From positions 1-64,000 of the forward strand of contig JABLXA010000016.1 in NCBI GenBank assembly GCA_013178415.1: DNA of 64,000 bases. The letters run 5' to 3'. The position numbers were made by a program, and so were the translations under genes. Shown here in pieces: positions 4,868-41,607 of this stretch (the stretch's first letter is position 1; each line of letters begins with the position of its first letter). The notes under the pieces are model-generated. The model was not told the DNA's origin, ran no database searches, and saw only the letters and a list, made by a program, of their open reading frames with translations. The stretch is from Bacillota bacterium (GTDB lineage: Bacteria; Bacillota; SHA-98; Ch115).

Positions 4868-4994
4868 AAAAGATTTTTTCGAGAGGAATTTACTAGACAA
4901 GAAGGAAAGCCACGTTTCCTGTCGAAATATCGAGTGGGTGCCAGTGAATCCGGTTCTTTACGCGGTCGCTTGGAATCGGCTGAGGTAGTAGCGA

Positions 4995-5046
4995 GACCGA
5001 CCAATTACAACCATCAGGCAGGCTGTGATTGTGGTTGGTCTTTTTT
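4995..5046 (+). terminator. Rho-independent terminator after diguanylate cyclase gene
   Basis: GACCGACCA near 4995-5003 pairs (one G-U) with TGGTTGGTC at 5032-5040, and TTTTTT follows immediately at 5041-5046. The preceding 125 nt include another small stem (AGGAAA/TTTCCT around 4902-4919), so the 3' region may be more structured than a simple terminator. Confidence 0.65.
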
Positions 5047-26748: not shown

Positions 26749-26808
26749 ATCTCTAAGCCTTGTCGCAAGGATGCTGCTGTAGTAGAATAACCACGGAGGT
26801 GTTTTGTG

Positions 26809-26988
26809 ATGGGTCTTGATGTAAGAGATACCCGGAACAAGCGGCCTATTAGGCGGCATATCAAGGTTGTAAGCGCTGGCATTCCCGGCCAGAGGATGCT
26901 TTCCGGCGGGTGCCATGAGTGCCAGACATCGTGCCAATCCGCATGCAAGACTTCCTGCACCGTAGGTAATCAAGTATGTCAGCAGTAG
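26809..26988 (+). CDS. scfA: SCIFF ranthipeptide precursor (six cysteines in a C-terminal core)
   Basis: 59-aa peptide. The C-terminal core has Cys at 35, 38, 42, 46, 50 and 57 (GGCHECQTSCQSACKTSCTV then GNQVCQQ), the diagnostic SCIFF pattern. The N-terminal leader is basic and somewhat longer than the usual ~45-aa total. Radical SAM enzymes of this family install Cys-to-alpha/beta/gamma-carbon thioethers. GGAGG lies 9 nt upstream; GTG 26806 would add one residue. The maturase start overlaps the last 13 nt. Confidence 0.92.
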   Translation: MGLDVRDTRNKRPIRRHIKVVSAGIPGQRMLSGGCHECQTSCQSACKTSCTVGNQVCQQ

Positions 26989-28403
26989 GGACCAGAAGGA
27001 CTCTGAGAAGCCCGGAGGAACTCAAGGCCGCTAACTGGCATCTCTTCCGCGCAGGCGGCCTTTCCCTATTTTTTGATGCTCGCACCCTCTCTCTCAATAT
27101 CCTTGATGAAGTCGCGCGGCGGGTTGCGGAGCTTTATGGGCTGATGAGTTCCGATGACATAATAGGCCGGCTCTCTCCAATGTATCCTTTATCTGATGTG
27201 GAATCTGCCATTGCGGAAATAGAGGATCTCGTATCTTCCGGATTGGTTTCCGATTTTCGCCAAGATGATAGGGCACTCTTTCCGATAGAATCCATTCCAG
27301 ATGAAAAGGCATCTTTGCCTGTCAAGGCTTTATGTCTCAATGTGGCCCATGATTGCAACCTCCGTTGCCGTTACTGCTTCGCAAGTTCGGGAGATTTCGG
27401 CGGATCCCGGAAGTTTATGCCAGCGAATGTCGCAAGGCAGGCAATAGATTTTCTATTGAAATCTTCTGGACCTCGAGCTCATTGCGAGGTGGATTTCTTT
27501 GGCGGAGAGCCACTGGTAAATTGGCCGGTCGTGGTTGATGCCGTGAGGTATGGCTATCAAAGAGCCGCTGAATATTCCAAGGCGTTGAAATTCACCGTCA
27601 CAACCAATGCTACGCTTCTGGATGACGAAAAGATCGAGTTCATAAGATCGAACAACATGGATATAGTGCTCAGTCTCGATGGTAGACCCGAAACAAATGA
27701 TAGAATGAGGATCTTTGCCGACAAGAGGCCGAGTTATGAAGTTGTAAGCCGCAACATCCGCAGATACCTGGAGCATAAGGGCGATGGCATATACTATGTC
27801 CGCGGGACGTATACAAGCTATAACCTGGATTTCGCCGCGGATGTCATGCACCTGGCTGATCTCGGGGCCAGGTCAGTTTCTGTAGAGCCTGTGGTAGCGG
27901 GTCCTGATGAGCCATATTCTATTAGAGAAGAGCATCTGCCCCGGATCTATGAAGAGTACGATAAGTTGGCCCTTCAGTATGTAGATCGCGCCAGGAATGG
28001 TAGAGGATTTTCATTTTTTCATTTCAATGTAGATCTGGATCATGGGCCATGCATTGCCAAGAGGTTCTCAGGATGTGGCGCTGGCATCGAGTATCTGGCT
28101 GTGACCCCTGAGGGCGACATTTATCCATGCCATCAATTTGTCGGGAAGCAAGATTATCGCCTCGGAAATGTATGGGATGGAATCCTTCATCCTGAGATTT
28201 CGCGACAATTTGCAGGGGCTCATATATATACAAAGAATGGGTGCGCAAATTGCTGGGCCAGATTCTTGTGCGGGGGCGGGTGTCATGCGAATGCGGTGGA
28301 GAGAGGAGGAGATATCCTGTCACCTGACAACATCGCGTGCGCCATCATGAGAAAACGTCTCGAGACTGCTCTTTTTGTGAAAGCGGCACTTAGTTCACCT
28401 TAA
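26976..28403 (+). CDS. scfB: SCIFF radical SAM/SPASM maturase
   Basis: 475 aa. Residues ~20-100 form the SCIFF-recognition (RRE-like) N-terminus. The radical SAM core begins at C127-x3-C131-x2-C134 (CNLRCRYC), with FFGGEPL and TTNATLLDDEK. The SPASM region contains CGAGIEYLAVTPEGDIYPCH and CANCWARFLCGGGC, supplying auxiliary 4Fe-4S ligands. It should crosslink the adjacent SCIFF cysteines by thioether bonds. It is translationally overlapped with scfA. No dedicated protease or exporter follows, which is usual for SCIFF loci. Confidence 0.94.
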   Translation: MSAVGTRRTLRSPEELKAANWHLFRAGGLSLFFDARTLSLNILDEVARRVAELYGLMSSDDIIGRLSPMYPLSDVESAIAEIEDLVSSGLVSDFRQDDRALFPIESIPDEKASLPVKALCLNVAHDCNLRCRYCFASSGDFGGSRKFMPANVARQAIDFLLKSSGPRAHCEVDFFGGEPLVNWPVVVDAVRYGYQRAAEYSKALKFTVTTNATLLDDEKIEFIRSNNMDIVLSLDGRPETNDRMRIFADKRPSYEVVSRNIRRYLEHKGDGIYYVRGTYTSYNLDFAADVMHLADLGARSVSVEPVVAGPDEPYSIREEHLPRIYEEYDKLALQYVDRARNGRGFSFFHFNVDLDHGPCIAKRFSGCGAGIEYLAVTPEGDIYPCHQFVGKQDYRLGNVWDGILHPEISRQFAGAHIYTKNGCANCWARFLCGGGCHANAVERGGDILSPDNIACAIMRKRLETALFVKAALSSP

Positions 28404-30466: not shown

Positions 30467-30722
30467 CATGGCGCTCCTTTGAAGTAATGTACTCAGATAA
30501 GACGTCAGAATTTGATAGATGTGGGAAAAAGGACATAGCATGGGCCTTTTGGATGCGAAGCCAAGAGCCAATGCTTTCGTACGCGAAAGAGGGGATCCAT
30601 AATGCGACAGTCCAAGGTAACTCGGCAGACAACACGGCCGCTACTGCCGCGCGGAAGAGAGGCCCATATTTTTTCCAAAAGATGGCAAAGATCAGTTCAC
30701 CTTCATTGTGAGAGGTGATCTA

Positions 30723-32045
30723 ATGAGGATCCAGGATTTGGCGAGTATAGCCATACGTTATTCGCGTATGAGGTTCCTCGAATCTTTCTTGATCGTGCTT
30801 GCGATAGCCCTGGGAGTCGCAGTTGTGGCAACATTCGCCGGGCTCATCGGCAGCGTGAGTGATCAGGCCAGGGCTTTCGCAAGGAATCCTATCGCGTGGG
30901 GAATATGTATAATACCCCGAGATGAGGACTATGCATCTTTTTCCAGCGGGCCGTCTCAGGCGCCTGCTACCCCCATAGGGCCCGCCGGGACGCCCCCTGT
31001 GCGGCTTACCATGCGGGATATGGAACGCCTCAGGCAGGGTGTCACCTCTGCCAGGTATGTTTTCACCCAAGAGTATAGAATGATGCCGCTCAGGCCTGCC
31101 ATATCCACAGGCAACAAGTCGGGGGCCCCGCACAGTGAGGTTATGGCGATTACGCCTGAGTTTTTTGATGCCTATGGATTGAGGCTGGGACAGGGGACTT
31201 TTTTCACCAAGTCTGATATATCAGCTGGTTCAAATGTGATAGTACTTGGGAGCAAGCTGGCCAAGCGTCTTTTCGGTGATGCTCCTGCCATCGGGCAGGA
31301 GCTCCTGTGGGGTTTTGCTCCAGTAGGCCCGGGGGGATCCAGAGGGGGAGCGTCCTCGTCTTATACAGTCATAGGCGTATTAGAGCCCGTCTCACCTGAT
31401 GCAAAGGGGAAAGGCACGGGCCTTTCAGACCCCATGGACCAGTTTGATGAATGTGGCTTCATACCTATCACCTCAACATGGGAGCACAGGGGGCCGGATA
31501 CAACCTTGCGGGAGATCTGGGTCATGCCTGCATCTGCGAAGGAAGCGCCAGTTGCTCTTGATGAGGTCAGGAAATTTGTAGAACGCGAATACCGCGGGGG
31601 TGTTGCCGTTCATTCAGCGCTTGATGACATGAAACATGCCATGCGCAGTCTGCGGGGTCTGGCGATGGCGATCCTGCTTATTGCGTCAGCCGGGATGGTG
31701 ATAGCTGCCATCAACATCCTCAACCTCATGCTTGCCCGTGTGCTCCGGCGCACTAAAGCCATTGGCATATCCATCGCCCTTGGCGCAAGCAGGCAGGACA
31801 TCTTTCTCCAATTACTCGGGGAATCATTCATCCTTGGGCTCGCAGGCGGCGGCATCGGACTGATTCTGGCGATGGGCGGGGTCCGTCTCATTGCCATGGT
31901 TACTCAAGGCTTCGTGGTTACTGTGGGGCTTTGGGGCCTTGCGGCGGGAATAGGCGCTTCGTGCCTCGCCAGCCTGGTATTCGGCGCTTATCCAGCCTAT
32001 CTTGCCGCCAGGTCTGTGGCGGCGGACGCCTTGAGGGAGGTATGA
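30723..32045 (+). CDS. ABC transporter permease, MacB/FtsX type (1)
   Basis: About 440 aa. One N-terminal TM helix (SFLIVLAIALGVAVVATFAG), a large extracytoplasmic MacB-core domain, then three C-terminal TM helices with the FtsX-like motif LRRTKAIGISIALGASRQDI. It lacks an ATPase domain; the ATPase is encoded at 34862. Together with the next three genes it forms a tripartite-like exporter. AGAGGTGA precedes the ATG. Confidence 0.9.
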   Translation: MRIQDLASIAIRYSRMRFLESFLIVLAIALGVAVVATFAGLIGSVSDQARAFARNPIAWGICIIPRDEDYASFSSGPSQAPATPIGPAGTPPVRLTMRDMERLRQGVTSARYVFTQEYRMMPLRPAISTGNKSGAPHSEVMAITPEFFDAYGLRLGQGTFFTKSDISAGSNVIVLGSKLAKRLFGDAPAIGQELLWGFAPVGPGGSRGGASSSYTVIGVLEPVSPDAKGKGTGLSDPMDQFDECGFIPITSTWEHRGPDTTLREIWVMPASAKEAPVALDEVRKFVEREYRGGVAVHSALDDMKHAMRSLRGLAMAILLIASAGMVIAAINILNLMLARVLRRTKAIGISIALGASRQDIFLQLLGESFILGLAGGGIGLILAMGGVRLIAMVTQGFVVTVGLWGLAAGIGASCLASLVFGAYPAYLAARSVAADALREV

Positions 32046-32049
32046 TGAG

Positions 32050-33414
32050 GTGCTTTCCATAATCCTTGGGTCCGCATGGCACAACATAAAGCGCCATCCG
32101 CTCCGGGCCTTCCTCACGATTCTACAGATAAGCATCGGGATTGCCTGCGTGGTGTCCGTCTTGAGCTATAAAATGAATCTCCAGGCTATGTTGGGCCATC
32201 TCGTTGGGGCGAGTGAGGATTTGGTGGTAGCTGTAGGCGGCAGTGAATTTCGTAATGAACAGGGCGGCTTGACGCGCGTCACGTATCCGATATTCACGGA
32301 AAGAGATGTGGCGGAGCTTGCCTCTGATTTTTCCATGGTGGAAGCGGTGTCACCTGTGGCGCAGCTCCCGATATTTGTGGCGGAGGCCAACGGAATGCGG
32401 TATCTCGTGAGGGGTGGTGCGTCAGTTGGTGCGGATTACGCGAAGATATATGACCTCGAGATAATCGAGGGCAGTTTCATAACCAGGTCGGATGTGGAGA
32501 ATAAGTCAGACGTGGTTGTGATCTCTGAAGGCCTTGGTAAAATCCTGTTTGGAAGCCCTCCATATGTTGGTGAGACAATTGAAGTTCTTCCCAGGGTTAT
32601 GGGCGGGATGGATCAGTCTAAGCCGGAGCCGATCCCCAGGACTAAATATAGAGTGATAGGCGTGTTCCGGGGTAAATCCGGCCAGGCGAATCCGCTTTCA
32701 CCCACCGTGAAGATCGCGTGGTCTGCGTTCTGGCCGGCCACTGTCGACCCGGCGGGCGTCGCAAGGGCTCCGGGTCTTGATATGGTGGTTCGGTATCCAT
32801 ATACAACCCTCTCGATTCGAGCGAAGCCCGGTAAGGCAGGCATGGTCAGAGATCGTATCAAGACGCTGATATCAGGGCGACGCCGGCCGGGTATCCCTAT
32901 TGCAGAAGCGGAGGGCGGGGTGAGGGCCGACGATAAGGCGTCGGTCATATTTGAATCTCCGGGGGATAGGGCCAAGATGATCTTGTGGTTTGCATCTCAG
33001 CTGACCCTGGCCCTTGGAGGCGCGGTCTTTGTTGCGCTCGTCGTGAGCGCGATAGGAATACTCAGCATAATGATGGTGAGTGTGGTGGAGAGAACGAGGG
33101 AGATAGGACTCCGGCGGGCCCTTGGAGCATCGCGCAGGGCTATCATACTGCAATTTACGTTGGATTCTACCATCTTGGCCTTCGCGGGAGGAGCCCTTGG
33201 CATTTTGTTGGCTTTCTGGCTGTATCCTCTCATAAAGAGCGTTGTTTTCGAACGGACCTGGTTTGCCACTGGCAGCCTTGTGAGTCCGTACCCGGCACCG
33301 CTTGCGGCCCTTGGAGGAATCGCGCTTGCCGCGGCATCGGGCGCCTTATTTGGATTCATCCCGGCCTTTCAGGCGGCAAAGGTGGAGCCTGCGGAGATCT
33401 TAAGAGAATTGTAG
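32050..33414 (+). CDS. ABC transporter permease, MacB/FtsX type (2)
   Basis: 454 aa with the same architecture as its neighbour: N-terminal TM, MacB core, and three C-terminal TMs with VVERTREIGLRRALGASRRA (FtsX signature). It starts at GTG 32050, 4 nt after the previous stop. A heterodimeric permease is likely. An ORF extending the downstream adaptor backwards to 32985 overlaps this gene in another frame and is not real. Confidence 0.9.
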   Translation: MLSIILGSAWHNIKRHPLRAFLTILQISIGIACVVSVLSYKMNLQAMLGHLVGASEDLVVAVGGSEFRNEQGGLTRVTYPIFTERDVAELASDFSMVEAVSPVAQLPIFVAEANGMRYLVRGGASVGADYAKIYDLEIIEGSFITRSDVENKSDVVVISEGLGKILFGSPPYVGETIEVLPRVMGGMDQSKPEPIPRTKYRVIGVFRGKSGQANPLSPTVKIAWSAFWPATVDPAGVARAPGLDMVVRYPYTTLSIRAKPGKAGMVRDRIKTLISGRRRPGIPIAEAEGGVRADDKASVIFESPGDRAKMILWFASQLTLALGGAVFVALVVSAIGILSIMMVSVVERTREIGLRRALGASRRAIILQFTLDSTILAFAGGALGILLAFWLYPLIKSVVFERTWFATGSLVSPYPAPLAALGGIALAAASGALFGFIPAFQAAKVEPAEILREL

Positions 33415-33431
33415 GAAGGGAATTCGATGCC

Positions 33432-34769
33432 ATGTCGGAGAGAGATGCCGGGATAAGGCAAGATACAGGGACGAAGCGATTTGAGCCCATTATAAGAAGG
33501 CCGCCCAGGGCATTATCGGGGCGTACCCGGAGAGATTTGGCGATGGTTCTCTTTGTCGCTATCGTACTGGCGCTCGTAGTAGGTCTGCCGGCATATTTCC
33601 TGATGCCACGCGAGAAGCCTTATCTTCTGGCCAATTATACCTATGCTGAGGTCAGGCCTGGAGAATTCAAAGATGTGGTGGACGCGCCCGGGACGGTTTT
33701 GCCGGCCCACACAGTAGAGATACGGGCGGAAGTGGCTGGAGTCGTTCAAAAGATTATGGTGACGCCCGGCCAGGAAGTAAAGCCAGGCATGTCTATATGC
33801 ATTCTCCACTCGGCGGATCTTGCGGCAAGACTTGAAGAAGGAAAACTTCAAGCGCTCACCGCCGAGGATAATCTGGAGAAGGCCCGCCTTGAGTCAAAGC
33901 AGACCATCGAGCGTATAGAACGCGACCTGGAGGATGCGAAAAGAGATGTCGCCTATGCGATGGCGAAGCTAGAGGACGCGCGAAAGCTTTATGAGGCTGG
34001 CGCCATTCCGCAAAAGCAGGTGGAGGAGGCCCAGGCGGAAGTTGATCGCGCGCAATCTATTGTCGAATCCAAACAATCGGAGCTCTCGGCATCGAAGGCC
34101 GAGGCTGAATTCCAGATCAACGCCTGCGCCCGGCAACTTGGCGCTGCCAGGTCTAGCCTCAAGGCTATCGAGGATGCCATGGCGGGGTTAGTTCTCCGTT
34201 CCCCCATCGCCGGCAAGGTTCTTGACGTGGCTGTTGTGCCGGGCGCGACAGTGAGCCAGGGGATGGTCGTCGCTCAGGTCGCGGACCTCAGCCGGCTGGT
34301 GGTAAAGGCTAAGGTAGATGCATCAGATATAAGGCTCGTCACGGCAGGTCAGAGAGCGACCGTGGATCTTGGCGGGAGGAGCCTCAGCGGGACCGTGCAG
34401 GATGTGGCTCCAAGGGCCGAAGAGACAGGGCAGGGCGCGACTGTGGATGTTACTGTAGGCCTGAATGCGAACCCGGGTGATGTGCCCCCAAATAGCGCGG
34501 CCTATGTTGAAATCGAAGTGAGGCAACGTTCCGGCGTTTTGTATCTCCCGCGAGGACCATTCCTCGCCAGCGGGCAGGAGATGTTTGTCTATGTGATAGA
34601 AGGGGATAAGGCGGTCCAGAGGGATGTGAGATTCGGCAGGTCCTATGGTAATGCTATTGAGATCCTGGAGGGGCTTGCTGCCGGGGAAAAGGTGATAACA
34701 TCTTCGTATGAGGAGTTCAAAGATAGGAAGGAGATTCGGGTATTGTCAGAAGGAGGGCGACAATCATAA
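33432..34769 (+). CDS. MacA/HlyD-like periplasmic adaptor subunit
   Basis: About 445 aa. A TM helix (about residues 37-60, VLFVAIVLALVVGLPAYFL) is followed by a membrane-fusion-protein fold: barrel-sandwich hybrid (VEIRAEVAGVVQKIMVTPGQ), a long coiled coil (about 140-240, Glu/Lys/Gln-rich), the second lipoyl half (LRSPIAGKVLDVAVVPGATV) and beta-barrel. It links the permeases to the cell exterior or an outer-membrane channel. I chose ATG 33432 as the first sensible start after the permease stop. Confidence 0.9.
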   Translation: MSERDAGIRQDTGTKRFEPIIRRPPRALSGRTRRDLAMVLFVAIVLALVVGLPAYFLMPREKPYLLANYTYAEVRPGEFKDVVDAPGTVLPAHTVEIRAEVAGVVQKIMVTPGQEVKPGMSICILHSADLAARLEEGKLQALTAEDNLEKARLESKQTIERIERDLEDAKRDVAYAMAKLEDARKLYEAGAIPQKQVEEAQAEVDRAQSIVESKQSELSASKAEAEFQINACARQLGAARSSLKAIEDAMAGLVLRSPIAGKVLDVAVVPGATVSQGMVVAQVADLSRLVVKAKVDASDIRLVTAGQRATVDLGGRSLSGTVQDVAPRAEETGQGATVDVTVGLNANPGDVPPNSAAYVEIEVRQRSGVLYLPRGPFLASGQEMFVYVIEGDKAVQRDVRFGRSYGNAIEILEGLAAGEKVITSSYEEFKDRKEIRVLSEGGRQS

Positions 34770-34861
34770 ACCGGCACGCCGCCGGATCCATCTTGCTTTT
34801 GAGTCCATTGGGGATCAAGCCGGACCAGCTTACCGCCGACTGTGCCAAGGGGGGGCTAGCT

Positions 34862-35566
34862 ATGAGTCAGCCTATGGATGGTTTCATTGCGCTTCGGGAT
34901 ATCTCCAAAATATATGTCTTGGGCAAGGTAGATGTATCCGCCATATCGGATGTCACCTTGGATGTCGCCCGTGGAGAATATATTGCGATAATGGGCCCGT
35001 CCGGTTCGGGGAAATCCACGCTATTGAATATAATGGGCGGACTTGACGTGCCAACTTCCGGAAAGTATCTGCTCGAAGGCGCTGATATAACCAGATTGTC
35101 CGATAGGGAGCTTGCCAGGATCCGATGTCAGCATTTCGGGTTTGTATTTCAGAGCTATAACCTCTTTCCAGAATTCACGGCAATTGAGAATGTGATGATT
35201 CCCATGGCATATGCAGGCGTCCGACCGGCAGAACGGTGGAAGAGGGCCTGTGCCCTGCTTGAATCGCTTGACATGGGCCACCGGCTGAGACATTATCCCA
35301 ACCAGTTGTCAGGAGGCGAACAGCAGCGCGTCGCCATAGCGAGAGCTCTTGCCAATGATCCTGACATCATTCTCGCTGATGAACCTACAGGGAACCTGGC
35401 GAGCAAGCAGGGCGATGAGATCCTGTCTATCTTTGATGACCTGAACTCACAGGGCGTTACTATTGTGATGGTTACTCACAACAGAGCTGTTGCCGACCAT
35501 GCAAGACGTCTAATTCTTCTTCGCGATGGCCGCGTTGAGAGCGATGAGGCGATAAGGCCCCTGTAA
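34862..35566 (+). CDS. ABC transporter ATPase, MacB/LolD type
   Basis: 234 aa. Walker [16 protein letters not shown]-loop [14 protein letters not shown], signature [16 protein letters not shown], Walker [16 protein letters not shown] and H-loop MVTHN are all present. It energises the two MacB-like permeases. A frame extending back to TTG 34793 exists, but ATG 34862 has GGGGGGGC just upstream and a typical N-terminus. Confidence 0.93.
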
Positions 35567-35794: not shown

Positions 35795-36508
35795 ATGGCC
35801 AGGATCAAATTGCTCCTTTTCACCGACCACCCTATAGTAAAACGGGGAGTACTGGACGCATTGAAGGATGAAGTCTCCATAGAAGTAGTTGGCGAGGCTC
35901 AATCTCTTATGGAGGCGGTTCATAAAGCTTATGAGCTGAAACCAGATGCTATCCTGGTGGACCCATACGCACGCAAGATAGATGGACGTGAGGCGAGCGT
36001 GATCTTACAGGAGATGCTCAAGGATATCATGGTATTCAACTTGGAAGACCGGGATGGAGTAAAAGGAACGATGCGCGGCGCCCTGCCTGGCCAGGACATG
36101 GCAAGATCAGGAGGACATGAGAGGGGCGAGGGCGGGGGAAAGGCCGGTTCAGGGCAGGATGCGCATCTTCCGGGGAACTGGATCATTGACCCTGATCTGG
36201 GGAGAATGCTGAAACAACGATCGCGGCTGGCCACAGACATTCAAATCAAGGCCCGGCTTGTAACGAGAGGGCCCAATCAGGGGGATTTTCGCTATTTCTA
36301 TTGTGATCCAAACTGGAAGCTCACCGAGGCTGAAAAAGATGTGCTCTCCTTCATAGTGGAAGGGCATTCCAACAGGGAAATCGCTGAAGAGCTATATCTC
36401 AGCGTCAATACCGTAAAATGTCATATAAGGCGGATCCTACAAAAACTGCATGTTACCAGCAGGTCAGAGGCCATAAGGGTAGCGACCCGGAGCCTCATTA
36501 AATGCTGA
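35795..36508 (+). CDS. LuxR/NarL-type regulator with degenerate receiver domain
   Basis: 237 aa. Residues 1-90 resemble a receiver domain (LLLFTDHPIVKRGVLDALKD) with a phospho-acceptor-like D56 (AILVDPYAR). However, the acidic pair is reduced to one Asp (TDH), and the conserved Thr/Lys strands are replaced by a Gly-rich linker (about 95-130). The C-terminus (about 170-235) is a complete LuxR helix-turn-helix: LTEAEKDVLSFIVEGHSNRE, SVNTVKCHIRRILQKL. No kinase is adjacent, so phosphorylation-independent control is likely. It directly precedes the putative RiPP operon and is the obvious candidate regulator. Confidence 0.88.
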   Translation: MARIKLLLFTDHPIVKRGVLDALKDEVSIEVVGEAQSLMEAVHKAYELKPDAILVDPYARKIDGREASVILQEMLKDIMVFNLEDRDGVKGTMRGALPGQDMARSGGHERGEGGGKAGSGQDAHLPGNWIIDPDLGRMLKQRSRLATDIQIKARLVTRGPNQGDFRYFYCDPNWKLTEAEKDVLSFIVEGHSNREIAEELYLSVNTVKCHIRRILQKLHVTSRSEAIRVATRSLIKC

Positions 36509-36524
36509 AGGTGAGCTGTGCGAG

Positions 36525-36589
36525 GATATTCACCCCGAATATCATCCTATAGGGTGATGTGATTTTATGGAAGGCCATGCTAGTATAGT
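36525..36589 (+). promoter_or_regulatory. Palindromic site and candidate activator-dependent promoter of the RiPP operon
   Basis: A perfect inverted repeat GATATTC-ACCCC-GAATATC (36525-36543) is followed by an imperfect one (ATCATCCTATAGGGTGAT, 36541-36558). TATAGT at 36584-36589 could be a -10 box, but no good -35 is seen (GATTTT). A palindrome about 60 bp upstream of a weak promoter is the arrangement expected for LuxR-type activation (inference). Confidence 0.4.
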
Positions 36590-36674
36590 CCTGCGGGGTT
36601 CTTCCAGCGGGAGGACAGCAGGTAAGATGTAGAGAGCTTTTGCTGAGGAGAATCTGTAGAGAGGAGGAAGAGGA

Positions 36675-36776
36675 ATGTACGGGAAGATCGGCGGGAAGCG
36701 GCTGAATCTCAATATCGGGATTGACGGATTCTGCGTGAGCTTCAGGCTGTGGGGACACAGAGTGACCGTCGGCTAA
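36675..36776 (+). CDS. Putative 33-aa RiPP precursor peptide
   Basis: Short ORF missed by length-limited gene calling. A very strong SD (GGAGGAAGAGGA directly before ATG) argues that it is translated. The peptide starts MYGKIGGKR, continues LNLNIGIDGFCVSFRLW (10-26) and ends GHRVTVG. It has one Cys (20), aromatic residues at 2, 19, 23 and 26, and alternating hydrophobic/polar residues. It precedes an RRE-containing radical SAM/SPASM gene by about 180 nt, with protease and ABC exporter genes following. No known RiPP class is recognised; FCV, FRL and WGH triads would be possible aromatic-crosslink sites, and Cys20 a possible thioether donor (speculation). Confidence 0.6.
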   Translation: MYGKIGGKRLNLNIGIDGFCVSFRLWGHRVTVG

Positions 36777-36889
36777 GCCAGTCAGCGCGAATCTCTGCCG
36801 TCCTATTCGGAGCATTGCCATCCAAAAGCCAGGATCAAGGGGGCAGAGCATCGAGGGATCTGATGCCGGCAGTTCTCTGAGTAGACGAG

Positions 36890-36950
36890 TTGCCGCCGGA
36901 AGCCTTGGAAGTGAGGCGCCTCCGGCGGTAACACCCAAGTGGAGGTGTTA
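36890..36950 (+). promoter_or_regulatory. Two hairpins between precursor and radical SAM gene, second one covering the SD
   Basis: Hairpin 1: TTGCCGCCGGA (36890-36900) pairs with TCCGGCGGTAA (36921-36931), one G-U. Hairpin 2: TAACACC (36929-36935) pairs with GGTGTTA (36944-36950), and its loop and arm contain the SD GGAGGTG (36941-36947). The two share TAA, so full formation is mutually exclusive. No T-tract follows either. They likely reduce maturase expression relative to precursor. Confidence 0.55.
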
Positions 36951-36956
36951 GGGAAT

Positions 36957-38405
36957 TTGTTGCCAGTTTACCTTTTGGAATCCAGACTTGCAATCCCGGC
37001 AAACGTGAGGGTCATCTCAGATAAGGATCAGGTCGTCGTGATCAATCCTGATCTCTCAGATTGGATAAAGTTGACTCCGGAGGCCTGGAGGCTGGTGACC
37101 GAAGCCTGCGAGGGGAAGTGGCCATCCCATCTCGCGCCGGATGATTCGATTCGGGTGCTTTTCGAATACCTCTTCGAGCATCAATATCTAATAAATATGC
37201 CAGGGAATATGGTATTGCCTCAACCCGCCAGGAATGGTAATACTTCTTTCTCCCCAGGTCCAGTCTCACCGTCCAGTCCTGAAAAACTCTACCTAAATGT
37301 GACAGACCGATGCAATCTCAATTGTCCGACATGCTATTTCGGCTCTGGAAGCGGACACGGAGAGTATCCGCTAGATCTAGATACTGACCAGTGGCATGGA
37401 ATAATTGATGGTATTGCATCGGATGGAGTCCAATGCGTCTTCATAAGCGGCGGCGAACCCTTGTTGCGGCCAGATCTCATCAACTTACTAGACCACGCAT
37501 GCAGGAAGTTTTCGAATGTGGTCCTGCTTACCAATGGGACGCTCATCACCGAGCCTCTAGCCAGTAAAATGGCGCAGATGGACCTACGCATCCAGATAAG
37601 TGTGGATGGAAGCCAGGCTGTGTTGCATGACTCCATCCGAGGCGATGGGACATTTTCGGCGGCCATCAGTGGAATAAAGCTTCTCCTTTCCGCGGGGGTG
37701 AAGAGAATTGAGATCGTGCCCACCATCACGAAACTCAACATCGGGGATCTCGCTGGTCTCGAGAATTTGGCACAATCTCTTGGGGTCGGTTACCACTTCA
37801 GCCTATTCATGCCAGTAGGGCGCGGGAAATGCCGATCGAGGGACCTGGAACTTACACCTGTGGACCTTTTAATATGGGCCGGGGATATCCTCGACAAGAT
37901 GTCCTCAGATCCTGCCTGCGGCGATGGCGCTGAATCCAAATGCCCGGATGGGCAGAAGATTGAGTGCCATGGTCCCGAAGCGCCCTTGGCTCTAATTCCT
38001 AGGGTTTCATGTGGCGCGGGAAAATCCATCTTAAGTGTAGGGCCCGATGGGAAGATATATCCATGCCCTCTGTTGCATCTTCCGGAATTAGCCTGCGGAA
38101 ATGCTCTCACCGATTCTGTGATGTCCGCTTTACGACTTATATCGGGCCAGATCCCTGATGTAGATGATCTCCCAGGCTGTAGTGAATGCGATGTCAGGTA
38201 CTTCTGCGGTGGGGGGTGCAGAGCCGGGTCATTTCATGAGAGAAGGGATTTTCTTGCCAAAGATCCTTATTGCAGCTTCTATCGAAGCTTGTACGGTTCC
38301 TTCCTATGGGATTGGCGAGAGGATGAACCTCCTGAGAAAAACCTGAAGCAGATGAGGGAGAACTTCAAAAGGGCAATTTCGAGTTTGAAAGGGGTCGAAT
38401 CTTGA
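36957..38405 (+). CDS. Radical SAM/SPASM peptide maturase with N-terminal PqqD-like RRE
   Basis: About 482 aa. Residues ~15-80 resemble a PqqD-type RiPP recognition element (VVVINPDLSDWIKLTPEAWR, FEYLFEHQYLI). The radical SAM core has C-x3-C-x2-C as CNLNCPTC (about residue 119), then FISGGEPLLRPDL and LLTNGTLI. The SPASM region is complete: CGAGKSILSVGPDGKIYPCP, then CSECDVRYFCGGGC, then a final Cys (DPYC). It should modify a leader-guided peptide, most plausibly the 33-mer encoded upstream. GTG 36939 is in frame, but the SD GGAGGTG suits TTG 36957/36960. It overlaps the protease gene at its stop. Confidence 0.9.
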   Translation: MLPVYLLESRLAIPANVRVISDKDQVVVINPDLSDWIKLTPEAWRLVTEACEGKWPSHLAPDDSIRVLFEYLFEHQYLINMPGNMVLPQPARNGNTSFSPGPVSPSSPEKLYLNVTDRCNLNCPTCYFGSGSGHGEYPLDLDTDQWHGIIDGIASDGVQCVFISGGEPLLRPDLINLLDHACRKFSNVVLLTNGTLITEPLASKMAQMDLRIQISVDGSQAVLHDSIRGDGTFSAAISGIKLLLSAGVKRIEIVPTITKLNIGDLAGLENLAQSLGVGYHFSLFMPVGRGKCRSRDLELTPVDLLIWAGDILDKMSSDPACGDGAESKCPDGQKIECHGPEAPLALIPRVSCGAGKSILSVGPDGKIYPCPLLHLPELACGNALTDSVMSALRLISGQIPDVDDLPGCSECDVRYFCGGGCRAGSFHERRDFLAKDPYCSFYRSLYGSFLWDWREDEPPEKNLKQMRENFKRAISSLKGVES

Positions 38406-39295
38406 ACTGGATCAAGAGTCTATTCACATGTGAGACTGCCTTGCCCTGGGCCATGATTGGCATCTCATGCGTTATATGTTTCTGGGTGGATTGGAAATTC
38501 GGTGATTCCCCGGATAGCGGCTCAAGTTGCGGGATTGAATCTCAAAGACAGAATGCGCATGCTATAAATCTTGGGCCTATCCTGGTTTGGGGCATGCTCG
38601 TGGCCATAGCTCTGGCCACTTCATCAGATCCTGTGGGGTACTATGGGCTTTCCACCACGCGCTTGAGTAAGATCCCATGGCTTGCTGTGGCCTGCATGGT
38701 AGGCACCGCCTTTTCGGCGGGAAGACTATTGGATCATGTTTTGTTACCGGGGGTCATCTCCCGTCTGGTCAGAGAAAATGTCATCGTTCCAGGCGGCAGC
38801 TTTGGGCTTCTAAGCAGGCTTGACACACATTACGCCTTATTCTTGGGCATCTTCTACATAGGATGTCAGACCTTTTTCGAGGAACTCATCTTCAGGGGAA
38901 TATGCTTTGACATTTTCTATCGTCTAATAATGGCGGCAAGAGGGTTTAGACCTGGCAGTGGGATCTTCGACGCGGTCATCATAGCCTCCCTCGGGCAAGC
39001 TTTGCTCTTTGGCGTGCTTCACCACATGCCATTGAGGCTGGCCTTGCGGAAACGTGGAGAAAAGGCGCTATTGATGGAGGCATATGTGATGGTCATGCCA
39101 ACCGCCCTCGGGTTCTTTTTTGAAATGCTGAATCGTTCCATTGATTCATTATGGCCGGGTTGGGTCGCACATTTTTCTCTCAACTATCTAACCATGGCCT
39201 GGATGGTTGTGGAAGGCTGGCGACAATCGACGGCTTTGAAAGCAGGACATAAACATGAGAAAGGAGGTAGGCGCATTCTTCCTATCAGCGAATGA
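38402..39295 (+). CDS. CPBP (CAAX/Abi) family intramembrane metalloprotease
   Basis: 297 aa with about eight hydrophobic segments. The three family motifs are visible: FFEELIFRGICFD (EExxxR), LLFGVLHHMPL (His), and WVAHFSLNYLTMAW (third His/Asn motif). CPBP enzymes in peptide operons often remove leaders or give immunity. It starts at TTG overlapping the radical SAM stop (TTGA), after AAGGGG. As the only protease in the operon, it is the candidate leader peptidase (inference). Confidence 0.88.
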   Translation: MNWIKSLFTCETALPWAMIGISCVICFWVDWKFGDSPDSGSSCGIESQRQNAHAINLGPILVWGMLVAIALATSSDPVGYYGLSTTRLSKIPWLAVACMVGTAFSAGRLLDHVLLPGVISRLVRENVIVPGGSFGLLSRLDTHYALFLGIFYIGCQTFFEELIFRGICFDIFYRLIMAARGFRPGSGIFDAVIIASLGQALLFGVLHHMPLRLALRKRGEKALLMEAYVMVMPTALGFFFEMLNRSIDSLWPGWVAHFSLNYLTMAWMVVEGWRQSTALKAGHKHEKGGRRILPISE

Positions 39296-39304
39296 GGAGG
39301 GCTT

Positions 39305-40303
39305 TTGCGCCGGCGCTTTGTGGGGATTTTGCGGTCTTCAATGTCATATTATGAATCTGCCATATCTCTGGAAAATGTCACCAAGACATATGGGAGGAGG
39401 TGGGGGCAGCCAGGAAAAACAGTGGTCAACAATGTGACTTTTGATGTATCCCATGGAGAGCTTATGGGTCTACTTGGTCCTAATGGCTCAGGTAAGACCA
39501 CTATCATCAAGATGCTGGTTGGGCTCGTGACATTGACTCACGGCGCGATACGAATAAAAGGGGTAGATATAACCAGTTCTAGGGCGAGAGCCCTTGCGGC
39601 TCTCGGAGTGATGTCCGGAGATGCCAGATCCCTTTATTGGAGATTAAGCTGCTATCAAAATCTGGAGTATTTTGGCGCACTCAGGACTGGGCTGTGGGGG
39701 CGCAAGTTGAGGGACCGTATTGGGAGTCTGTTAGAAGCTTTCGGTCTTTCCAGTATGAGCAACACACCAGCCGGTGATCTTTCTCGCGGGCTCCTGCAGC
39801 GGCTTGGGTTAGCTGTGGCTCTTGTGAGCGACCCTGAGATACTGATCCTCGACGAGCCCACATCCGGCCTAGATGTGGTTGCAATTCATGAGTTAGTCGG
39901 GTTTCTTCGTGAGCTTTCCAGGCGGGGACGGACGATACTCATAGCAACGCATGATATGAGTTTTGCCGAGAGACTTGCGGATAGGGTATGCATAATACAG
40001 GGAGGATATCTAGTCGCCCTGGACAGGGTATCTCACCTGTCCAGGCTTTTGAGGACCCACTGCTATGAGCTCTCCGTGGATGGCAGCATTGATGAGATCG
40101 GACGGGATGCCATCACCTCGTTTAAAGGTGTGGCTCTCAGCGAGACTAGAGATGGATTGAAGATCACATTTGATGCTGAGGATGTAGACGAGCTCTATGA
40201 GCTGCTAGATTTCCTGAGGCAACGGAAGGTTGGCATCAAGGATCTTTTGCGGAGGGAACCAGACCTTGAGCAAGCCTATCTGCGAATCATTGGGAAAAGC
40301 TAG
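39305..40303 (+). CDS. ABC transporter ATPase of the RiPP operon
   Basis: 332 aa. Walker A GLLGPNGSGKTTIIKML, a degenerate signature LSRGLLQRLGLA (LSRGxxQR form typical of ABC-2 exporters), Walker B EILILDEPTSGLDV and H-loop IATHDMSFAE are present. The C-terminal ~90 residues form an accessory domain as in multidrug or antibiotic-peptide ABC-2 ATPases. TTG 39305 has the strong SD GAGGAGGG; ATG 39341 lacks one. It partners with the following permease. Confidence 0.92.
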   Translation: MRRRFVGILRSSMSYYESAISLENVTKTYGRRWGQPGKTVVNNVTFDVSHGELMGLLGPNGSGKTTIIKMLVGLVTLTHGAIRIKGVDITSSRARALAALGVMSGDARSLYWRLSCYQNLEYFGALRTGLWGRKLRDRIGSLLEAFGLSSMSNTPAGDLSRGLLQRLGLAVALVSDPEILILDEPTSGLDVVAIHELVGFLRELSRRGRTILIATHDMSFAERLADRVCIIQGGYLVALDRVSHLSRLLRTHCYELSVDGSIDEIGRDAITSFKGVALSETRDGLKITFDAEDVDELYELLDFLRQRKVGIKDLLRREPDLEQAYLRIIGKS

Positions 40304-40320
40304 GGGAAGGGGAATAGAGA

Positions 40321-41118
40321 TTGTTTTCATATGTGATACTGTGCATGGCAGAATTCAAGCGAGGAGTATTGATGCACTTCAGATACCCTTTATCTGCAGT
40401 TGCGGAAATGGCGGGGTTGGTGATCACAGCATTTGTCATAGTGGCAGGGGCAGATGCATATCCTGGCACTATCGGGACCAAATTCGTTGAAGCAGGGGAA
40501 CGGCTCGCCGGTTTCGTGGGGTTCTTCATAGCTTTGGTTGGTACGCAGGGACCGAGTAAGGTAGTTAGAGATGAGGCGGATACGGGGACCCTTGAGCAGC
40601 TTTCCATATGTCGCCCCAATCTGATGTGCATCATCATTGCCAGGGTTATGGCGGATACGATGAGGTTAATCCCCATTTTGATACTAGCCCTGGGGGCTGT
40701 GGCTCATATTTCGGGGATAGAGATATCATTGCCCTTCATAAAGGTCTTTGTGATATTACTTGCGATCGGGGTTGGCATGTCGGGCTGGGGTTTTTTGATA
40801 GCGTCGCTGGTTCTCCTATACAAGCGAATGGGGTTTCTCATTAATCTCTTCAGCCTTGCGATGCTCCCTCTGGCAATATTGCCGATGAAGGACCTTCCAG
40901 CGTCGATCTCGCTGGCGGCCGCCATGGTTCCTTTTCGCTGGGGTAACGCGCTCCTACAAGGGGCTATAATGCCGGGCGCGGTTGGACCAGAATCTGTATG
41001 GACATCGGTACTGGCCCCATTTCTAGCTAGCAGCGTTGCCACCATCGCCATAGGAATCGCGGTCTTCGCTTACGCTGATAGAATCGCCCGAAAGGATGGG
41101 TTACTCGGGAAATATTAG
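40321..41118 (+). CDS. ABC-2 type transporter permease of the RiPP operon
   Basis: 265 aa with six hydrophobic segments and an ABC-2 membrane fold (VVRDEADTGTLEQLSICRPN is the usual cytoplasmic coupling region after TM2). With the preceding ATPase it forms an exporter for the modified peptide or an immunity pump. TTG 40321 follows AAGGGG. Confidence 0.87.
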   Translation: MFSYVILCMAEFKRGVLMHFRYPLSAVAEMAGLVITAFVIVAGADAYPGTIGTKFVEAGERLAGFVGFFIALVGTQGPSKVVRDEADTGTLEQLSICRPNLMCIIIARVMADTMRLIPILILALGAVAHISGIEISLPFIKVFVILLAIGVGMSGWGFLIASLVLLYKRMGFLINLFSLAMLPLAILPMKDLPASISLAAAMVPFRWGNALLQGAIMPGAVGPESVWTSVLAPFLASSVATIAIGIAVFAYADRIARKDGLLGKY

Positions 41119-41136
41119 GGTTCGGAGGGATCGTGT

Positions 41137-41607
41137 GTGGATTCAGTTCGTGCTTCCAGTGGTTTGGATCTCCATAGCTTTGGAGATTTGCCCTCAGGCG
41201 TTTCTAAAACTTACCTCAAGATCGGACAATGGTATCTTGATCTCGCCAACAAGGAGGGGCAGCCTCCAAAGAAACTGGAAGCCTTGGGAGTAGCTCTCGA
41301 TGCATTCTGTCAGGCGAAGCGCCTCGGGGCCGGAGCTACGGCATGTGCGATGCTCAGTGATGTGCTTGCATCTTATGCCAGGGTTAAAGGCAAGGAACTG
41401 CTGGAGGTGCGTTGGTTCGCCGATAGAGCTATCCTTGAGGCTGAAGAGGGTATCGCTATGGAGCCTAATAACCCTTTATCCTATCTGGCCCTGTCCCGCG
41501 CCTTGACGGTCCGGGCTCGGCTCTGTCCAGAATGGATGATCCTCCCATTGTTGTTGAAGGCGGCAATGGCTTATGATGTAGCGCGCAAGCTACAGCATGA
41601 GATATAG
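41137..41607 (+). CDS. Helical-repeat (TPR-like) protein of unknown function, last RiPP operon gene
   Basis: 156 aa, soluble, mostly alpha-helical and Ala/Leu-rich (GQWYLDLANKEGQPPKKLEA, AILEAEEGIAMEPNNPLSYL). The second stretch looks like a TPR hairpin. No family is recognised. It begins at GTG 41137 with GGAGGG upstream, 18 nt after the permease, so it is likely part of the operon. Possible roles are immunity or scaffolding; nothing decides between them. Confidence 0.7.
   Translation: MDSVRASSGLDLHSFGDLPSGVSKTYLKIGQWYLDLANKEGQPPKKLEALGVALDAFCQAKRLGAGATACAMLSDVLASYARVKGKELLEVRWFADRAILEAEEGIAMEPNNPLSYLALSRALTVRARLCPEWMILPLLLKAAMAYDVARKLQHEI

Follow-up and report, generated by a model that had tools for sequence, protein, structure and literature searches.

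The closest described systems to the locus considered here are built around thioether-forming radical S-adenosylmethionine (SAM) enzymes that mature ribosomally synthesized and post-translationally modified peptides (RiPPs). The sporulation killing factor (SKF) operon of Bacillus subtilis, skfABCEFGH, runs from a precursor gene through a radical SAM enzyme with a RiPP recognition element (RRE), SkfB, to a protease, SkfC, and an ATP-binding cassette (ABC) pair (PMC8172795, PMC6231123), and in the thermocellin system (CteA/CteB), of the SCIFF or ranthipeptide type, a single Cys-Thr thioether has been seen in vitro (PMC8326336). In the ranthipeptide precursor NxxcA of Streptococcus orisratti, NxxcB links Cys23 with the beta-carbon of Asn20 (PMC8326336, PMC13361665); streptococcal radical SAM RiPPs, the NxxC setting included, are Rgg linked, and streptosactin (StsB/GggB) has two thioether rings (PMC13361665). 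Here, we describe a cassette of seven genes at 35795-41607 of the window, that is, the whole stretch of 64,000 nucleotides analyzed (positions 1-64000 of contig C16 in a Bacillota genome of 3.57 Mb and 57 contigs), which is almost certainly a RiPP system; its precursor family is undescribed and assembled from known RiPP parts. The most unusual feature of the operon, invisible from the window alone, is a precursor that is nearly invariant, without any variable core, and present throughout two classes. The conserved core, constant across the family, comprises the following four genes:

35795..36508, + strand: regulator of the LuxR/NarL helix-turn-helix (HTH) type with a degenerate receiver (PF00196, 4.6e-18; Response_reg, 20.6 bits of the 30.2 required)
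36675..36776, + strand: 33-residue precursor peptide, MYGKIGGKRLNLNIGIDGFCVSFRLWGHRVTVG (ungapped 33-residue homologues in 28 loci; pooled ratio of nonsynonymous to synonymous differences, pN/pS, 0.16)
36939..38405, + strand: radical SAM/SPASM maturase with an N-terminal RRE (PF04055, 9.1e-23; profile and fold matches to CteB and SkfB)
38402..39295, + strand: CPBP (Rce1-like) intramembrane glutamic protease (PF02517, 1.1e-9; motifs EELIFR, FGVLH, and HFSLN)

All seven open reading frames (ORFs) of the original prediction were found in place and on one strand, with tight spacing throughout except on the two sides of the precursor gene (166 bp on the 5' side and 162 bp on the 3' side, the latter gap containing a stem-loop). 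The short ORF credited there with an excellent Shine-Dalgarno sequence indeed has GAGGAGG upstream, and a purine-rich ribosome-binding site precedes the precursor in most loci. The proposal of a precursor-maturase operon was borne out in the relatives, all of which come from genomes, mostly drafts, of one phylum sample, on which the presence figures below rest: a homologue of the 33-residue peptide adjoins the orthologous radical SAM gene in 28 of 28 loci, no orthologous radical SAM gene among them lacks a related short ORF upstream, and the order of regulator, precursor, radical SAM enzyme, and CPBP protein recurs from locus to locus.

The precursor consists of exactly 33 codons and a stop at every one of the 28 loci, the window included, and aligns without gaps, starting with ATG or GTG (ATC in a single assembly, L050). 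Six residues, G7, C20, F23, W26, T31, and G33, are invariant; position 17 is D in 20 sequences, N in 7, and S in 1, giving a [D/N]-x-x-C motif, and residue 32 is I in 22, V in 3, and L in 3. Residue 28 varies among H, F, Y, and V, and residue 25 among L, C, F, and V. Conservation is higher in the C-terminal half, with a mean column entropy of 0.88 bits over residues 16-33 versus 1.53 bits over residues 2-15, and a variable core is absent from the alignment of the 28 sequences. Since pN is 0.07 against a pS of 0.46 in a codon comparison of 16 pairs, the ORF is, judged by its sequence, a selected protein under strong purifying selection beyond what chance would give. The precursor matched no family in Pfam or NCBIfam. 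The earlier suggestion that the class may be new nevertheless needs tempering, as the maturase lies nearest to thioether-forming enzymes and a single Cys of the precursor is invariant.

When 150 relatives were searched with the 33-residue peptide, it was found in 20 genomes, its own included. A profile built from the precursor sequences, run on a draw of 399 genomes from the phylum, matched 27 of them; the other genomes, about 371, yielded none. The cassette is present in 17/17 sampled genomes of the window's class (G000 and G001-G016) and in 11/12 of a second class, or 12/12 if G325 is counted; the precursor of G325 is taken to be unassembled because its contig starts within the maturase gene, which is followed by a CPBP gene. 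A maturase profile built from 26 enzymes and searched over 399 genomes gave at least 271 bits in precursor-bearing genomes, the lowest values coming from truncated copies, and at most 238 bits in the best nonmembers, which include a mycofactocin maturase in G268 (400 bits against the mycofactocin cut-off of 265) and a methyltransferase-radical SAM fusion in G292. Precursor and maturase co-occur across the sampled genomes. In the enzyme tree, the genome groups f1, f2, f3, and f38 each form a single group and the two classes stand apart, with f63 and f74 mixed at modest support; set against the taxonomic labels, the tree broadly agrees with them and would fit descent without recent transfer. No relative was found in viral contigs, and the plasmids searched held only distant radical SAM proteins, none of them at 60% identity or above.

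By profile as well as by modeled fold, the maturase appears nearest to the thioether-forming CteB, SkfB, and StsB. Against the PDB, the family profile matched CteB at 7e-35 (residues 27-427) and SkfB at 9e-34, with weaker matches to PqqE, sulfatase maturase, TigE (8vpo), SuiB, and EpeE; CteB reached 124 bits and TigE 68, and EpeE (YydG) gave a short match at 4e-6. AlphaFold modeled the maturase with confidence (pLDDT 82, pTM 0.81), and a fold search with this model was led by SkfB (1e-15) and CteB (8e-15), followed by the sulfatase maturase anSME and SuiB; the TM-scores, about 0.45-0.53 when taken on query length, denote a partial match, perhaps through differing domain placement, and are to be read as support rather than proof. 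Among NCBIfam models, that of the sactipeptide maturase StsB scores best with the window enzyme (over residues 15-451) and is the sole one to match every one of the 26 members. The CX3CX2C cysteines of the radical SAM domain are invariant wherever the family sequences reach, as are seven SPASM cysteines (C358, C376, C414, C417, C423, C427, and C445), and these ten cluster ligands are the only invariant cysteines in the family. The N-terminus had been described as PqqD-like; Pfam PqqD is not matched, and the RRE is supported instead by matches to CteB, SkfB, and StsB that span the N-terminal domain. The true start of the enzyme may be a TTG at 36957 or 36960, after GGAGGTG.

Compared with the described systems, the cassette shares with skf its gene order and the proximity of its maturase to SkfB, but SkfB has a single auxiliary cluster, held in a Twitch domain (PMC6231123), in place of a full seven-Cys SPASM domain, and SkfA has 55 residues, several cysteines, and a separate core, as opposed to 33 residues with one invariant cysteine. 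With the SCIFF systems it has the RRE-radical SAM/SPASM type of maturase in common, whereas the SCIFF precursor has six cysteines and is unrelated: the window precursor, having one, does not match the SCIFF model (TIGR03973, about six Cys in 45 residues). The cassette additionally has the CPBP protease and the regulator, and the SCIFF maturase encoded in the same window is only about 25% identical to the operon enzyme and falls in a separate clade. The likeness to the NxxC ranthipeptide, in which a beta-thioether is formed, is one of motif spacing, [D/N]17-x-x-C20 corresponding to Asn20-x-x-Cys23, although D dominates position 17 in the window family where NxxcA has Asn.

The best overall explanation, to which we give a little better than an even chance, is a vertically inherited, thioether-making RiPP cassette whose product is a signal or another conserved physiological factor. 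In such a system, the RRE would hold the precursor by its basic N-terminal half, and the enzyme would abstract a hydrogen and join the sulfur of Cys20 to another residue, giving one thioether. The most likely acceptor would be Asp/Asn17, which precedes the cysteine by three positions just as the Asn of the NxxC ranthipeptide does; failing that, it would be the invariant Thr31, SCIFF enzymes being known to use Thr acceptors (PMC8172795, PMC8326336). The CPBP protease would then trim the modified peptide and the ABC pair, where present, would export it, with the LuxR-type protein regulating the operon and the stem-loop after the precursor gene setting the ratio of precursor to enzyme. We consider formation of a thioether reasonably likely in itself, given that Cys thioethers are what the closest enzymes make and that a single Cys is invariant in the precursor; by analogy, the product may represent a ranthipeptide or sactipeptide of a new family.

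Several observations weigh against this explanation and bear on other chemistries for the same cassette. The maturase scores far under every NCBIfam cut-off (142 of 625 bits for StsB, and 139.9 of 265 bits for MftC of mycofactocin biosynthesis), so that the type of reaction cannot be read from family membership, and anSME, SuiB, which forms a C-C bond, and TigE, which forms a cyclopropane, also lie near in fold. The product chemistry is a prediction from sequence, and the signaling role, which we hold with moderate confidence, draws only on distribution and constraint. The AlphaFold model of the precursor is weak (pLDDT 66, pTM 0.24), so that Cys20 cannot be placed, and a candidate hairpin with C20 facing T31 was dropped, the model being too weak to tell. 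The invariant F23 and W26 would suit a C-C crosslink of the three-residue cyclophane type at F23-x-x and W26-x-x, of the kind known from triceptides, streptide, and tryglysin (WGK), the more so as WgkB is among the NCBIfam matches of 23 of the 26 members and SuiB is a fold neighbor. We nevertheless regard a cyclophane as unlikely, since known cyclophanes have conserved polar partner residues, unlike the variable residues 25 and 28, the latter being the would-be partner of W26; C20 would moreover be left unexplained, and CteB and SkfB score higher.

The T-[IVL]-G end of the peptide resembles cyclopropylglycine motifs, T31 and G33 being invariant, and TigE is found among both fold and profile matches, so that a cyclopropylglycine at residue 32 can be envisaged by analogy with TvgB, which acts on the Val of a TVGG motif (PMC9062424). 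This is improbable in our judgment: the TigE profile score is well below that of CteB, the TvgB substrate is repeated where the 33-mer has a single motif, the Leu of f38 fits poorly, and C20, F23, and W26 find no explanation. Still further down, we place a D-amino-acid epipeptide, for which a very improbable case can be made from the yydFGHIJ (epeXEPAB) operon, as that operon mirrors the gene order and also has a membrane protease (PMC7026026, PMC12871923). The protease of the window is of the CPBP type and not M50 as in EpeP (PMC10885120), and the reading drawn from operon likeness was rejected on account of the weak match to EpeE and of the lack, beyond the ten cluster ligands, of an invariant Cys that could serve as hydrogen donor.

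The same distribution data bear on what the product does. If the product were a bacteriocin resembling SKF, with the CPBP protein for immunity and the ABC pair for export, this would account for a gene set that parallels skf in its precursor, radical SAM enzyme, protease, ABC pair, and orphan (PMC8172795), and for the resemblance of the maturase to SkfB. This reading is nonetheless rather unlikely, for the peptide is slow evolving, universal in two classes and without a variable core, and the second class has no exporter adjoining the cassette. Antimicrobial precursors usually diversify and are patchy in distribution, and SKF is not known to be universal in any lineage. A sporulation factor was rejected as well, as the f38 genomes keep the cassette although no Spo0A in them passed the cut-off, so that a sporulation toxin is not required; in G011 and G281 Spo0A also fell under the cut-off, probably owing to fragmented assemblies. 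For the preferred reading, in which the product would serve as an intraspecies signal or some further conserved physiological factor and not as an antimicrobial, the argument is that the peptide is both constrained and universal in two classes, and it has a precedent in SCIFF, whose wide spread has been taken to speak against an antimicrobial role and for which a role in quorum sensing has been reported (PMC8326336). Given the constraint on the peptide, both classes probably make one and the same molecule, and an intracellular role is possible, as the second class has no adjoining exporter. A bolder version, which we put forward only tentatively and think somewhat unlikely, would make it a class-defining RiPP, a near-invariant signal or a redox or structural cofactor with a novel crosslink pattern involving C20, F23, W26, and T31.

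Outside the four core genes, the operon contains the following features:

36889..36932, + strand: stem-loop of 12 bp without a U-tract (window score of 12 against a best shuffle of 13, weak alone)
39305..40303, + strand: ABC transporter ATPase (DrrA/NodI-like), accessory exporter (PF00005, 8.8e-29)
40321..41118, + strand: ABC-2 type permease, accessory exporter (PF01061, 9.7e-6; 25.7 bits against a cut-off of 26.9)
41137..41607, + strand: orphan of 156 residues, possibly TPR-like, a lineage-specific accessory (PF13431, weak at 0.078)

The stem-loop ends just 5' of the annotated maturase start. In f3 (L047-L059), a stem-loop located 10-70 nt downstream of the precursor stop codon shows compensatory change in 12 of 19 predicted pairs and likewise has no U-tract, and most other loci have a similar stem after the precursor, the single-sequence scores often lying inside the shuffled range. 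A processing, stabilizing, or attenuating element is the probable interpretation. No riboswitch was found near the operon, the sole Rfam match in the window being a c-di-GMP-II class element (c-di-GMP-II-GAG) at 4928-5011, which scores 45 bits where the gathering threshold is 40.

An LuxR-type HTH gene lies upstream of the precursor in nearly all the relatives' loci. Because its receiver domain scores under the Pfam cut-off, we prefer this label to that of a working two-component response regulator; the receiver is intact in f2 (PF00072, 2.3e-12), degenerate in f1, and not detected in f38, and the N-terminus of the f3, f63, and f74 members is unlike a receiver. No histidine kinase was seen among the ORFs adjoining the operon. 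The predicted glutamate-type intramembrane protease was likewise recovered with its motifs: EExxxR is present in 25/25 sequences, and FxxxH and HxxxN in all but one, which is ended by a contig edge. Its gene follows the radical SAM gene wherever the contig is long enough, in L059 as a tblastn match where no separate ORF was called. By its sequence, the CPBP protein probably processes the precursor or, alternatively, may confer immunity. As for the exporter, the ATPase and permease genes foreseen do exist, the permease being marginal in Pfam, but they stand outside the conserved core, because not all of the window's class has them next to the cassette (f1, f2, and many f3 genomes do) and they are missing beside it in f38, f63, and f74. 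A homologue of the orphan was found only in G001, the other f1 genome.

In several f38, f63, and f74 loci, the cassette is followed by genes that we take to be obg, nadD, yqeK, rsfS, and leuS, sometimes after a SPOB_a-type kinase, and in G092 and G128 it adjoins such a kinase and obg. Upstream of the regulator at four loci of the second class (L062, L075, L078, and L079) lies what is presumably an amidohydrolase resembling deaminases of methylthioadenosine/S-adenosylhomocysteine or of 5'-deoxyadenosine, the latter being a by-product of radical SAM enzymes.

A second group of loci, the f86 cassette of G191 and G329, is apparently another undescribed RiPP cassette, and its radical SAM enzyme is the next nearest to the family. 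Its likeness lies in short basic precursors, a stem-loop, an RRE-radical SAM enzyme, an ABC gene and, in G329, a CPBP-like gene after the enzyme (assigned by eye from an EE motif); it differs in having up to three divergent tandem precursors of variable sequence and about half the maturase profile score. G329 has three precursors of 35-39 residues in tandem (L091, 4173-4718), and G191 one of 44 residues (L090). The IGVNGIC of an f86 precursor recalls the SINGIC of some members from the two classes, a short motif match to be taken as a lead only. These data suggest a wider group of precursor/radical SAM/CPBP cassettes, of which the version found in the two classes is nearly fixed.

The window also holds a complete SCIFF pair (pair region, 26806-28403) on the same strand as the operon, which upholds the claim of a separate, second system:

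26854-26982, + strand: SCIFF precursor (69 bits against a cut-off of 50)
26976-28403, + strand: SCIFF maturase, completing the pair with this precursor

Of the 29 genomes that carry the cassette, 27 have SCIFF matches. In 15/15 genomes with both systems on one contig, SCIFF lies upstream of the cassette on the same strand, at a distance of 2.3-48 kb. Between the two loci, at 30708-35566, are MacB/FtsX-type permeases, an HlyD-like adaptor, and a LolD/MacB-like ATPase, an unrelated-looking second set of exporter genes.

In the library of papers searched, none joined CPBP, radical SAM, RiPP, and precursor, and the matches listed for precursor motifs were all unrelated papers, which does not prove absence. 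To our knowledge, RiPPs kept by entire lineages are rare, pyrroloquinoline quinone (PQQ), mycofactocin, and SCIFF being the examples, and each is a proven or suspected cofactor or signal; the present cassette, if our reading is true, would be another lineage-wide RiPP beside them. The linkage of SCIFF and cassette wherever both share a contig lets both systems be studied together, and 33 residues with one enzyme offer a compact substrate-enzyme pair for radical SAM chemistry. The cassette would thus also give a handle on the physiology of uncultured Bacillota known only from metagenome assemblies.

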